Below, in pieces: positions 11,662 to 20,200 of a stretch of 24,786 nt of DNA. The stretch lies in IMG/VR virus record IMGVR_UViG_3300042559_001495, positions 1 to 24,786 of that record; one strand, written 5' to 3'. The stretch is from a virus. The translations under genes and the position numbers were made by a program. Numbering within the stretch: position 1 is the first letter of the stretch; each line of letters starts with the position of its first letter. The notes below the pieces were generated by a model, which did no database searches, was not told where the DNA came from, and saw only the letters and a list, made by a program, of their open reading frames with translations.

Positions 11662-11690
11662 TTGACAAACCAAAGTTTTCGTGGTACAAT
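11662..11690 (+). promoter_or_regulatory. Sigma70 promoter P1 (TTGACA-17-TACAAT, extended -10)
   Basis: TTGACA at 11662-11667, a 17-nt spacer, and TACAAT at 11685-11690 preceded by TGG (extended -10). It lies 27 nt before the ATG of a short basic ORF and reads into the tRNA cluster. Host-type promoters of this quality are typical of phage early genes. Confidence 0.8.
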
Positions 11691-11870: not shown

Positions 11871-11945
11871 GGGATTGTTGCTTATTGGTTAAAGCCCACT
11901 GCTTATAACGGTGTGAACGGGGTTCAATTCCCTGCAGTCCTACCA
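11871..11945 (+). tRNA. tRNA-Ile (anticodon UAU)
   Basis: Full cloverleaf: acceptor GGGATTG/CAGTCCT (G1-U72 wobble), D stem GCTT/AAGC, anticodon stem CACTG/CGGTG with loop CTTATAA, T stem CGGGG/CCCTG with loop TTCAATT. Anticodon TAT lies at 11904-11906 and reads AUA. The discriminator A and CCA (11943-11945) are encoded. The host normally reads AUA with a CAU-lysidine tRNA, so UAU is a different solution. The next gene has the same anticodon. Confidence 0.85.
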
Positions 11946-11946
11946 T

Positions 11947-12018
11947 GGGAGTATAGCTTAATGGTTAGAGCGGGCTCCTTATAAGGGCTTAGTCTGGGTT
12001 CAACTCCCAGTATTCCCA
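11947..12018 (+). tRNA. tRNA-Ile (anticodon UAU), second copy type
   Basis: Acceptor GGGAGTA/TATTCCC, D stem GCTT/GAGC, anticodon stem GGCTC/GGGCT with loop CTTATAA, T stem CTGGG/CCCAG. Anticodon TAT lies at 11980-11982. No CCA is encoded. It starts one base after the CCA of the previous tRNA. Stems differ from the first Ile-UAU gene, so this is not a recent duplicate. Confidence 0.82.
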
Positions 12019-12020
12019 TT

Positions 12021-12094: not shown

Positions 12095-12123
12095 TTGACA
12101 ATTTAAGCAACCTATGCTACAAT
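12095..12123 (+). promoter_or_regulatory. Sigma70 promoter P3 (TTGACA-17-TACAAT, extended -10)
   Basis: TTGACA 12095-12100, 17-nt spacer, TACAAT 12118-12123 preceded by TGC. It sits in the 43-bp gap between the CAU tRNA and tRNA-Leu and would transcribe tRNA-Leu, the 90-aa gene and cpeT. Confidence 0.8.
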
Positions 12124-12136
12124 TGTCATATACCAC

Positions 12137-12220
12137 GGGGATGTGGTGGAAGTGGTAGACACACCAGACTTAAAATCTGTTGAGCGTATGCTCGTGGGGG
12201 TTCAAGTCCCCCCGTCCCTA
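12137..12220 (+). tRNA. tRNA-Leu (anticodon UAA)
   Basis: Acceptor GGGGATG/CGTCCCT (G-U at 1-72), anticodon loop CTTAAAA with TAA at 12171-12173, long variable arm GAGC-GTAT-GCTC typical of Leu, T stem GGGGG/CCCCC. The outermost anticodon-stem pair is a C-U mismatch. No CCA. It reads UUA, abundant in these genes. Confidence 0.88.
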
Positions 12221-12253: not shown

Positions 12254-12526
12254 ATGAAATACAAATACACATTATCTCAATCTTATGTCTTCTATATGGG
12301 AGAGGTAGTACGTATGTATTTCATACAAGGTGTACCATATACCTTTGATGAACTACCCCAAATAGTTCAAGATCACCCTTCTGTTCAGGCAGAAGCACTT
12401 CAGCATCGTGATTATGATGATGAATGTCTTTACATGGCATCAAATTATTTGGTGACTGAAGCTGCTCATCCACTTATGTTTGAACTTGAAGTTGACAATC
12501 CAGATCTATTGCCAAAAGATGATTGA
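12254..12526 (+). CDS. Hypothetical protein, 90 aa
   Basis: ATG at 12254 with a weak GGA ribosome site that can be buried in the preceding hairpin. In-frame Met codons at residues 15 and 21 are alternative starts. The product is acidic and soluble (DDE and DNP clusters), with no signal peptide or membrane segment. No family recognised. It overlaps the cpeT start by 8 nt, which suggests coupled translation and perhaps a related role. Typical of small uncharacterised cyanophage genes. Confidence 0.62.
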   Translation: MKYKYTLSQSYVFYMGEVVRMYFIQGVPYTFDELPQIVQDHPSVQAEALQHRDYDDECLYMASNYLVTEAAHPLMFELEVDNPDLLPKDD

Positions 12527-13070
12527 AAAATTTAAAGAACTTTTAGTTGGTAAATTTGATAATAAAAGACAAGCATTTTCTTTTCCAAGTAAGTTTGCTT
12601 TTATTAGAATCACGCATATAGATATTGGTAATAATCTTTATTATGGAGAACAAGCTTACAATCATCAACTTCACAGTCCATACAGACAATTTGTTCTTGA
12701 GACAATTCAAGAAGAAAATCAAATTCGTATTATCAACTACGAATTATTAGACAAAGATCAATTTAAAAACTGTCAAAACCTTGACAAAATTGATAGAAGT
12801 ATGCTAAAATTAAAGAGTGGTTGTGACGTTGTTGTAACACAAGATGGTGATTCATTTAAAGGAGGATTGACTGGTTGTGATTGTCATGTTGATTGGATGG
12901 GTAGAGATACTTATCTTCAAAATCAAATTGAACTAACTCCAGATTTTTATTATGTAATTGACAAAGGATTTTGTGCTAAAGATAACCATCAACTTTGGGG
13001 ATCTAAATATGGTAGATTTGAATTTGCAAGAATGCCTCTAAAGCATTGTGGTGATGTACCGCTCTTGTAA
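12519..13070 (+). CDS. cpeT: CpeT/CpcT-family phycobiliprotein lyase-like protein
   Basis: 183 residues from the ATG at 12519, which overlaps the preceding gene by 8 nt. An in-frame Met 13 codons upstream (12480) would lie deep in that gene and is less likely. Family hallmarks: YYGEQAYNHQ (41-50), SPYRQFVLE (53-61), NYELLD (73-78), SGCDVVV (100-106), GCDCH (119-123), LTPDFYYVIDKGF (139-151) and QLWGSKYGRFEFAR (158-171). Cellular CpeT and CpcT attach or help attach phycobilin chromophores to phycobiliprotein cysteines. Cyanophage homologues are known auxiliary genes whose exact activity is uncertain. The family domain ends at about residue 171. The last 11 residues are encoded by DNA that is also the 5' half of tRNA-Thr, and the TAA stop lies in the anticodon loop. 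Probably transcribed early from P3. Confidence 0.85.
   Translation: MIEKFKELLVGKFDNKRQAFSFPSKFAFIRITHIDIGNNLYYGEQAYNHQLHSPYRQFVLETIQEENQIRIINYELLDKDQFKNCQNLDKIDRSMLKLKSGCDVVVTQDGDSFKGGLTGCDCHVDWMGRDTYLQNQIELTPDFYYVIDKGFCAKDNHQLWGSKYGRFEFARMPLKHCGDVPLL
12781..12810 (+). promoter_or_regulatory. Sigma70 promoter P4 inside cpeT (TTGACA-18-TAAAAT, extended -10)
   Basis: TTGACA 12781-12786, 18-nt spacer, TAAAAT 12805-12810 preceded by TGC, the same TATGC context as P3. It lies in coding sequence, so conservation through protein sequence is possible. It could drive tRNA-Thr and the noncoding region beyond. Confidence 0.5.
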
Positions 13071-13104
13071 AGCGGAGAGTTCAGTTCAATTCTGAATAGA
13101 GGCT
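13034..13104 (+). tRNA. tRNA-Thr (anticodon UGU), overlapping the cpeT 3' end
   Basis: Acceptor GCCTCTA/TAGAGGC (7 Watson-Crick pairs), D stem GCAT/ATGT, anticodon stem CCGCT/AGCGG with loop CTTGTAA, T stem TTCAG/CTGAA with loop TTCAATT. Anticodon TGT lies at 13066-13068. Discriminator T; no CCA. Its first 37 bases overlap cpeT. Confidence 0.85.
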
Positions 13105-13247: not shown

Positions 13248-13319
13248 CTTCTGGTAGTCTATTGGTAAGGACGGGTGGACAACACACATGGAAACTGGGT
13301 TCGATTCCCAGCCAGGGGA
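13248..13319 (+). pseudogene. Decayed tRNA or tRNA-like element
   Basis: Acceptor CTTCTGG/CCAGGGG (two G-U pairs), D stem GTCT/GGAC with ATTGGTAA loop, and a perfect T arm CTGGG-TTCGATT-CCCAG are intact. The segment between (13273-13294) gives no 5-bp anticodon stem and no loop with U33. It looks like a tRNA that has lost its anticodon arm, or a tRNA-like structure kept for another use. Confidence 0.55.
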
Positions 13320-13349
13320 CGATAGAGGGTAAGCCTCTGTTATATCCTT

Positions 13350-13508
13350 ATGAGGTATATTACGCTTACTCCATCAATAACACCCCTCAAGCCTATCTCC
13401 CATTCACGAGACCAATTTGTTGGCGCCAACAAAAAGGTTTTGGGGATGATGCTCAAACAGAGGGGTCACTACTATATTAACACACATACACACAAGAGAA
13501 AACAATGA
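13350..13508 (+). CDS. Possible small ORF, 52 aa
   Basis: ATG 13350 to TGA 13508; the stop overlaps the next ATG as ATGA. The product is basic with a His/Thr/Lys/Arg-rich tail (THTHKRKQ). No clear ribosome site precedes it and codon use (CTC, CCC, GCC) differs from the AT-rich genes around. An 18-bp palindrome lies inside. It may be real or just open by chance. No family recognised. Confidence 0.3.
   Translation: MRYITLTPSITPLKPISHSRDQFVGANKKVLGMMLKQRGHYYINTHTHKRKQ
13416..13433 (+). promoter_or_regulatory. Perfect 18-bp palindrome
   Basis: TTTGTTGGC/GCCAACAAA with no spacer. The absence of a loop and of a downstream T-run argues against a terminator; two-fold symmetry fits a binding site for a dimeric protein. 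It lies 72 bp before the 70-aa gene. Confidence 0.45.
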
Positions 13509-17200: not shown

Positions 17201-20200
17201 GTCTTTCTATTAATAATAAAGCTCAGGATGCTGCCAATAGAATTGAAGACAATAAAAAATTCATTCAATCTGAAGCATATGGATATATTACTGCAAAGTA
17301 TCCAGATTTACTAACAAATACCAACATCACAATTACTAAATGCGAAAGAGACATCGGTTACTTTGTAGATGCTGTAGTTCAAGATCTAAGACTTGGCGGA
17401 AATATCAATACAATTCAAGCTGCTGAAGGATATTATGTTGGTGGTCAATTAGCATATATTGAAGAAGAACTTACAGAATCTATTGATGCGTATGCATATG
17501 TTAAGCAACTATGTATCTCATCAATGAGAAATTTTGATTATGTAATAAAAAATTGCTCATGTAATTCAGCAAGTGCTATTGTAAATGTTGGAGATACTAC
17601 AGGTTTACTTGTAGGAATGAAGGTAACTGAGTACACTACGAATGATTTTGAATATGGTTGGTTGAAATCTGGTTCTACTAGAGTAAGTAATAGTCCAATA
17701 CCAGAAAATACTTATATCAAGAGAATTGTAAGTAGTACAGAAATTGAGTTAGGAACCTATAGTAGCTATTTGACATTTGGTTCTACCGTAAATGCAACCT
17801 CATCAAAAAGCAATATGGTGCTTTATTTTGAGTTTGAAAAAACTGCGAATCAAAGCGATGCACAGACCAATCTACAAGGAAAATGGTCTGTTTACCCAGC
17901 AACACAAGATTTAACTATAAGTAAAGATACTTCATCTTGGGGTGTTGATGGTCCATATCCAGAATGTAGTGATATTGCTTCTACTATTTCTGGTTATTTT
18001 GATAATATTCTATTAATTTTAAACCAAGGAATTAATGCTGGAGTAGAAAGAATTGAGCCTGTTATAGATACTTCTTCTTTAGCATCAAGAGCGACACTAT
18101 TTACTATTAATACAGGATTAGGATTATCTAATCCACATAAATTTGAAACTGGAACACCAGTTAGACTTGTACCAAAAGCAAAGCAAGGAACTAACCCAGA
18201 TAAAAGATTAATAAGATTACCAAAAGGATTTTCTACAAATACTGTATATTATGTAATAGCTCCTGGAAGAACTACAACACCAGAAAATTATTCAGATTTT
18301 TCTAAATATCAGGATACATTTACTTCGGCTGCATCAACAAGATTGATGTTGGCTACAACTAAAGAAAATGCTGCTGCTGGAATTTATATTCATTCTCCAG
18401 AAGCAGAATCAATTGATGAAAATGTAGAAATTGAAATTTATCAATATGTATTAGATGTAAACTATGATTTACATCAATATAAGTGTAATTTTATTACTGG
18501 TCAAACTGATGTTATTAGAACTGATGTAAACCATATATTTGATATTCCATATTCTTCCGATACTGTTCAGAAAATATTCTTTAGAACTCTTCCTGGTTCA
18601 TCTGGAACATTACCACAAATTAATGTGGGTGGAGTTACTCAAGTTATTGATACAAACAAATATTATTATGCTAGATTTATAACCAAAGAAACATTTGCTG
18701 TTTTTGAAACTGCAGCTCAAGCAATAGCAGGCTCTCCACGTATAACATTTACTAATGGATTTGGACAAGATTTTTATGTTCTTTGTGATAAACGCAGATC
18801 TCCAATTAGATATGATGCAGAATTAGTCAATTCTGAAACCACCACTGGACAATGGTATATCAATTCAAAATCAGAAAATAATAATATTATTGATAGATTA
18901 CAAGAATTAGGAGCACTCATTAGAGATCCTAGAAGTAAGAATACATACTTCACTAGATTAATTGATGAAAGAGATAAATCTGATAGAATTTATAGAATTA
19001 GGTATGTTATTTCTGGGTATTCTGAAGGAGTTAGAGATCCATTACGTGGATTTGTACTCAAAGCAAAGACCGACGAAACAAGAAAACTATTACCACAACG
19101 TATATTATTAAAACCAGTAAGTAATGGAAGTCCAGAGTTTGCAACATTTAATGTAACATCACAAAGACCTACTGGTGGAACAATAACACAAAAACTTGGA
19201 ATTACTAAATCAGATCCATCATATGATGCAGATTTTACGTATGACCCATATTTCAGTCCAAAGATTATTGATAGTACAAAAACTCTAAGTAAAATAGCAT
19301 TCAGCATTCAATCTGCCAGAAAAGTAGGTAATAATTTAGAATTAACTATTTTTGATCATACTATCACAGAAGAAACTTTAAAGAATGAAATTTTTACAAT
19401 TGTAAAAATTGATCAACCACAAAATGGTACTGGAGCATTTTATTCAACAAATGGAATTAATCAAATATATTGGTCAGGAAATTCTGCTGGAAATGCATTG
19501 GTACATGGGTATTTTGTTGCTCCAACTACTCCAAATGAATATTATCTAATTTTAAAAAATGTTACAGGTTCAATAGATTATAGCTCAATTATTGATACAA
19601 CTTTCTATCAATCTGCTAGAGATAATAACAATGCAATTATTATTAATAATGGAGTTGAAGTAAAGATATTTGCTAAGCTTCTTGCCCCAGTTAATAGTGC
19701 TGGTAGTATTAATAATTCATTAAGTAAATCCGCAAAGAAAAATTACTTATACAGTAATAAATTTGCTAATGTTTTTAGTGCTGTTCCTGGTGATATTATA
19801 TCTGATGATACGGACACACAATATAAAATATATTCTGTAGAAGATTGTGTAGATATAGACGATACTTTCTACATATTTGATATCAATGAAATACAAAGAA
19901 GAATTGCTGGTCAGCAAGATGGAATTTACTATTTAACTTGCGTAAAGGGAAATATTTCTCCATATCCAACTGGAACTGGCATTTCAGAAAACTTCAGAAA
20001 ATATAGATTCTCTCAGCCAATTTCACAACTATATCCTCTAGATTATAAAAATGATCCATTATGGTTCCAAGTAAGAGCTGATGGAACTAGAGATGAAAAT
20101 ATTTTTGATCCTCCACAAGCAATTTGTGCAGCTGACAACTTTATCCATGGTTTAGTAACAACTAATGATTACAAAAATAGTTTAACAAAAGAAGCTGCAT

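Follow-up and report, generated by a model that had tools for sequence, protein, structure and literature searches.

The cpeT locus

The stretch of DNA analysed here, referred to as the window, is a virus record of 24,786 bases, and in gene content it is a T4-like cyanophage. Among annotated relatives, Synechococcus phage Sf-FR1 comes nearest over the first 8 kb. The features that matter for the present analysis are as follows:

12095..12123, + strand: predicted sigma-70 promoter (TTGACA-N17-TACAAT), which precedes tRNA-Leu(TAA), a small gene and cpeT
12137..12220, + strand: tRNA-Leu(TAA), called by ARAGORN
12254..12526, + strand: small conserved gene (phrog_4134, function not known), whose own stop lies over the cpeT start in an 8-nt overlap
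12519..13070, + strand: cpeT (CpeT/CpcT family, PF06206), 183 aa, open from ATG at 12519 to TAA at 13068-13070
12781..12810, + strand: predicted sigma-70 promoter inside cpeT (TTGACA-N18-TAAAAT, extended -10 TG, 11/12 consensus)
13032..13070, + strand: CpeT tail, MPLKHCGDVPLL followed by the stop, read from the tRNA 5' half
13034..13104, + strand: tRNA-Thr(UGU) of the A8/U14 lineage, called as tRNA-Thr(TGT) by ARAGORN and matching Rfam tRNA
13248..13320, + strand: atypical tRNA-like gene 3' of tRNA-Thr (ARAGORN Leu CAA, weak)

The product of cpeT is a full-length family member, matching PF06206 with E=1e-36 over residues 5-171 and profile positions 2-181 of 181, and it is also classified as a CpeT-like antenna protein by PHROG. 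The role of the phage copy of CpeT has been called unresolved (PMC3037559). The phrog_4134 gene is kept 5' of cpeT in annotated relatives.

The surroundings are rich in tRNA-like sequences. Two tandem tRNA-Ile(TAT) genes at 11871-12019 abut each other directly and differ in sequence. The tRNA-like Leu(CAA) gene at 13248-13320 has no long variable arm and carries a deviating anticodon arm. It also occurs in L023 (2165-2236), L042 (2635-2706), L024 and phage DSL-LC03, and these near-identical copies in distant cyanophages point to a conserved element, though its identity is uncertain. Further downstream, positions 13383-13466 match the Rfam abiF RNA below threshold (29.6 bits against a gathering score of 37); no alignment to L023 or L024 was obtained for these positions.

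Overlap of cpeT with tRNA-Thr

The reading frame of cpeT extends 37 nt into the tRNA-Thr gene. A preliminary description of this DNA had placed a tRNA within the 3' end of cpeT, the end of the CpeT domain at FEFAR, the last 11 residues in the 5' half of the tRNA and the stop in its anticodon loop, and the analysis agrees on each of these points. The Pfam match ends at residue 171 (base 13031), at FEFAR, which is the end of the profile as well. The tRNA begins (G1) with the final base of the M172 codon, and the 11 residues that come next (PLKHCGDVPLL) are entirely tRNA-encoded. The stop codon, TAA at 13068-13070, occupies index 35-37 of the tRNA, that is, U36-A37-A38. This UAA is near-invariant, as it follows from the UGU anticodon together with a purine at position 37 and A38.

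The tRNA scores 53.3 bits against the Rfam tRNA model (cut-off 29), with every stem of the cloverleaf paired and a UGU anticodon. Its sequence has G1-C72, C2-G71, G35 and U36, which are threonine identity elements. In place of the canonical U8-A14 tertiary pair it carries A8 with U14, which comparison with other phage tRNAs (see below) marks as a consistent variant rather than decay. It appears to be a plausible working tRNA. In single-strand folding the cloverleaf was not the minimum for this tRNA, nor for that of a normal relative, and folding was left unused.

In the closest relatives of a first scan (L023, L024 and L025), a TAG lies at tRNA positions 8-10. The 3' flank of cpeT in the window is near-identical to theirs up to G1, so that the gene abuts the tRNA 5' end. 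The usual UAG is absent from the window, and AAG (13041-13043; A8 A9 G10) stands at its site. The window junction thus reads as a derived variant of a junction with the stop at U8-A9-G10.

Survey of cpeT-tRNA junctions

In 117 cpeT loci readable to the stop, taken from isolates and IMG/VR, the stop and the next tRNA were located. Dereplication at 88% nucleotide identity left 71 loci, 56 of them with a tRNA within 200 nt; the loci share ancestry, and the counts given here are not numbers of independent events. The cpeT stop lies within the tRNA in 43 of these 56 loci and before it in 13. In 39 of the 43 overlapping loci (39/71 overall) it is UAG at U8-A9-G10, provided by tRNA-Thr in 32 cases, tRNA-Asp in 6 and tRNA-Ile in 1. 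The other four are S-PM2 (UGA at 4-6), L110 (UAA at 6-8), S-CAM3 (UAA at 37-39) and the window. Comparison of cyanophage cpeT 3' ends, proposed earlier as a check, therefore reveals a recurrent overlap and not the rare one that had been supposed; only its depth is unusual, the anticodon loop being reached in 2/43 overlapping loci (the window and S-CAM3). Where cpeT has no close 3' tRNA, its own stop follows soon after the same FxFxR motif.

Few tRNA bases are as constant as U8, A9 and G10. Because they are near-invariant, a gene that abuts a tRNA in the matching frame gets a ready-made stop. Comparison of the loci indicates an ancestral state in which cpeT continued directly into a tRNA gene, that of tRNA-Thr or sometimes of tRNA-Asp or tRNA-Ile, and ended at the UAG of U8-A9-G10. 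The same junction, with a stop at other positions of the tRNA, recurs in isolates and independent contigs by the dozen, and the arrangement in the window is not due to chance.

Cultured Kyanoviridae (S-CAM1, S-RSM4, S-WAM2, S-CAM4, S-PM2 and S-CAM3) have the same cpeT-tRNA synteny as the window, and their annotated coding sequences overlap the tRNA by 7-39 nt, usually 10 (stop at U8-A9-G10). The window differs from them in its A8-lineage tRNA, and its anticodon-loop stop is common only to S-CAM3. There, the annotated CpeT coding sequence (18135-18686) runs over tRNA-Thr (18648-18721), and the UAA at 37-39 is again U36-A37-A38, since the D-loop is two bases longer. The tRNA of S-CAM3 is of the U8 type, whereas that of the window is not, and cpeT enters the tRNA in another frame; by this comparison, S-CAM3 came to its anticodon-loop stop by another route.

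The same junction is found at unrelated genes. U8-A9-G10 supplies the stop of a 2OG-Fe(II) oxygenase gene in S-CAM1 (tRNA-Ala) and of an HNH gene in S-WAM2 (tRNA-Asn). Genes assigned by motif only also end there, namely HNH-like genes in L031 and L046 (tRNA-Thr and tRNA-Met) and an oxygenase-like gene in L089 (tRNA-Thr).

Exchange of the tRNA and the A8/U14 lineage

The window and L024 are identical at 40/41 bases 5' of the tRNA and at 210/216 bases 3' of it (flanks about 97%). Between these flanks, the two tRNA-Thr genes share about 65% identity with gaps, that of L024 being of the ordinary U8 type. This comparison shows that in the window lineage a U8-type tRNA-Thr was exchanged, near-exactly at its ends, for one of the A8 lineage. 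With the exchange UAG became AAG (Lys), and so the cpeT frame stays open until the anticodon loop supplies an in-frame stop; the gain amounts to nine codons up to the UAA. The possibility that a single U8-to-A substitution had altered the resident tRNA was considered and rejected, as the difference extends over the whole tRNA. Despite the exactness of the exchange, the incoming and resident types share only a few bases at the tRNA ends. The donor of the window tRNA is inferred.

An A8-type tRNA lies at the same cpeT site in three other contigs, L059, L108 and L110, where the lost stop was solved otherwise: L110 uses a UAA at 6-8, and cpeT of L108 and L059 stops before the tRNA. More widely, the A8/U14 lineage occurs in the freshwater Synechococcus phage DSL-LC03, in Pseudomonas phage Astolliot and in many IMG/VR contigs. 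Among the matches listed to the D-arm pattern of the window tRNA, 57 distinct sequences comprise 54 with A8 and U14 and 3 with U8 and A14, so that A8 always goes with U14 and U8 always with A14. In 30 distinct A8 sequences among the matches listed, the stems vary and pairing is mostly kept. Within the tRNA-Thr set, again among the matches listed, all three frames are closed within 39 nt in 17/27 A8 and 21/52 U8 sequences.

The genes 5' of A8 tRNA-Thr are mostly HNH endonucleases, with the stop at index 6, 7, 19 or 35 depending on frame. HNH 3' ends overlap this tRNA in several frames in L042, L137, L142, L144, L162, L172, L180, L187, L220 and L224. The DSL-LC03 locus, like L137, L144, L162, L172, L180 and L220, resembles the window in that a window-type A8 tRNA-Thr closes the upstream gene; it differs in that this gene is an HNH endonuclease instead of cpeT and in the use of other stops (index 6, 7, 19). 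In L144 the HNH gene (PHROG E=9e-24) shares its anticodon-loop UAA stop with cpeT of the window, and its tail is PPYKHCGDAAVL. These associations suggest co-mobility of HNH genes and A8 tRNA-Thr, and the frequent presence of an HNH gene beside the tRNA suggests homing with partial conversion; in the window itself no HNH gene was identified beside tRNA-Thr.

Over the overlapped 37 nt, the A8 tRNAs closest to the window among the matches listed, several of them behind HNH genes, differ from it by 1 base. It is thus the tRNA that dictates the sequence of the tail. When the 37 nt of the window were compared with A8 tRNAs in other contigs, no sign of selection on the tail peptide was seen, and the CpeT tail is probably a tolerated by-product.

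Predicted promoters within and upstream of cpeT

Four near-consensus sigma-70 promoters (11/12, with TG before the -10 element) are predicted on the + strand of the window, at 11662, 11825, 12095 and 12781, and two of the four sit just ahead of tRNA genes. All promoters reported here are consensus matches. An equally strong site is present inside cpeT in most relatives with a nearby tRNA, where it occupies one of three locations that differ in reading frame. When codons were shuffled synonymously, the promoter score reached p<=0.05 in 29/57 near-tRNA loci (a count that shared ancestry of the loci inflates), against 0/50 for the upstream gene and 0/57 for the first 246 nt of cpeT. By this measure, conservation of the predicted internal promoter exceeds what protein conservation alone explains. 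A good internal site was found in 49/57 near-tRNA loci and in 9/14 others, and a good match also in 3/6 loci without a tRNA in the stretch examined; the link between promoter strength and tRNA presence is thus suggestive and not significant by itself. The internal promoter likely transcribes the tRNA, with a predicted start near 12817.

Origin and possible meaning of the overlap

The explanation that we consider probable is that gene and tRNA form a modular junction, where the stop codon for translation of the gene comes from the tRNA gene that lies downstream. Long transcripts, which may start from the 12095-12123 promoter, would be translated to CpeT, with ribosomes stopping inside the tRNA sequence, and CpeT would probably be made from these longer transcripts before the RNase P cut. 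The tRNA would probably come largely from a shorter RNA started at the promoter within cpeT and then processed. An RNase P cut of the long transcript would leave a nonstop cpeT message.

The main alternative is a regulatory switch, in which RNase P cuts the transcript where the tRNA begins and leaves a cpeT message without its stop, CpeT is turned off as the tRNA builds up, and the overlap is kept for that purpose. The preliminary description had argued along these lines that tRNA maturation and CpeT synthesis compete. One part of that argument is right by logic, as the same RNA molecule cannot serve as a complete cpeT message and also be matured to tRNA. The argument is weakened by the predicted internal promoter, a separate source of tRNA without cpeT: with two promoters, one of them inside cpeT, direct competition is avoidable. 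In favour of a switch, the overlap is widespread and has been retained through tRNA exchange, and in human mitochondria messages flanked by tRNAs show impaired termination when they have no processed stop, which a tRNA-encoded in-frame stop can remedy (PMC9674279). Against it, the depth and frame of the overlap vary (stop at 4, 6, 8, 35 or 37, or before the tRNA, the last in 13/56 loci), unrelated genes share the junction, and the tail, set by the tRNA, bears no sign of coding selection. The comparative evidence thus leans against a tRNA/mRNA switch, which we consider unlikely, and a switch in time, as had been suggested, finds no support.

It is very unlikely that the tRNA-Thr is a pseudogene, with an odd A8 and a short D-loop, into which cpeT drifted. 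A8 and the 71-nt length are indeed unusual next to the U8-type cyanophage tRNA-Thr, but A8/U14 defines a lineage conserved in phages whose hosts differ; many paired changes occur in its acceptor, anticodon and T stems, the anticodon is TGT in 30/30 distinct sequences among the matches listed, and the Rfam score is well above the cut-off. Since this lineage is conserved with paired stem changes, the tRNA was exchanged and not degraded; sequence decay was rejected once the lineage had been found. That assembly wrongly fused a cpeT contig with a foreign tRNA, the error of which the preliminary description had warned, is very improbable. The exact junction was not seen in a second contig among the IMG/VR records searched, but a chimera needs two switches within 71 nt while both flanks match L024; three other contigs (L059, L108 and L110) have a tRNA of this type in this position, and the overlap is equally deep in S-CAM3, an isolate of which several strains have been sequenced.

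Relation to known systems

The abutment of genes and tRNAs is classic in mitochondria. In human mitochondria, six mRNAs abut tRNAs without overlap, their stop is formed by polyadenylation after RNase P cleavage, and an in-frame stop read from tRNA sequence can restore termination (PMC9674279). The window resembles this tRNA punctuation in that a coding sequence abuts a tRNA from which an in-frame stop can be read; it differs in that its stop belongs to the tRNA, so that cleavage would remove it. Overlaps of coding sequences with tRNAs are already present in the GenBank annotation of cyanophages, and in the open-access literature subset searched no description was found of a phage gene stop at tRNA U8-A9-G10 or of stop loss by tRNA exchange.

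On the modular reading, cpeT is a case of a gene that cedes its stop codon to a neighbouring tRNA, with one ancestral state and several repairs after tRNA exchange. The conserved predicted promoter within a coding gene makes a testable proposal for how phage tRNAs are transcribed, and the ties of this tRNA-Thr lineage to HNH endonuclease genes suggest a hint of how phage tRNAs move. A broader and rather doubtful generalization would be that in T4-like cyanophages tRNAs serve as exchangeable stop cassettes driven by hidden conserved promoters, with RNase P creating nonstop messages that limit the upstream protein.

Annotation pipelines that bar overlaps of coding sequences with tRNAs may miss such genes. 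In S-H9-1 and S-H9-2 (L006 and L014), cpeT is unannotated and was found by tblastn; perhaps the overlap with the tRNA is the cause.
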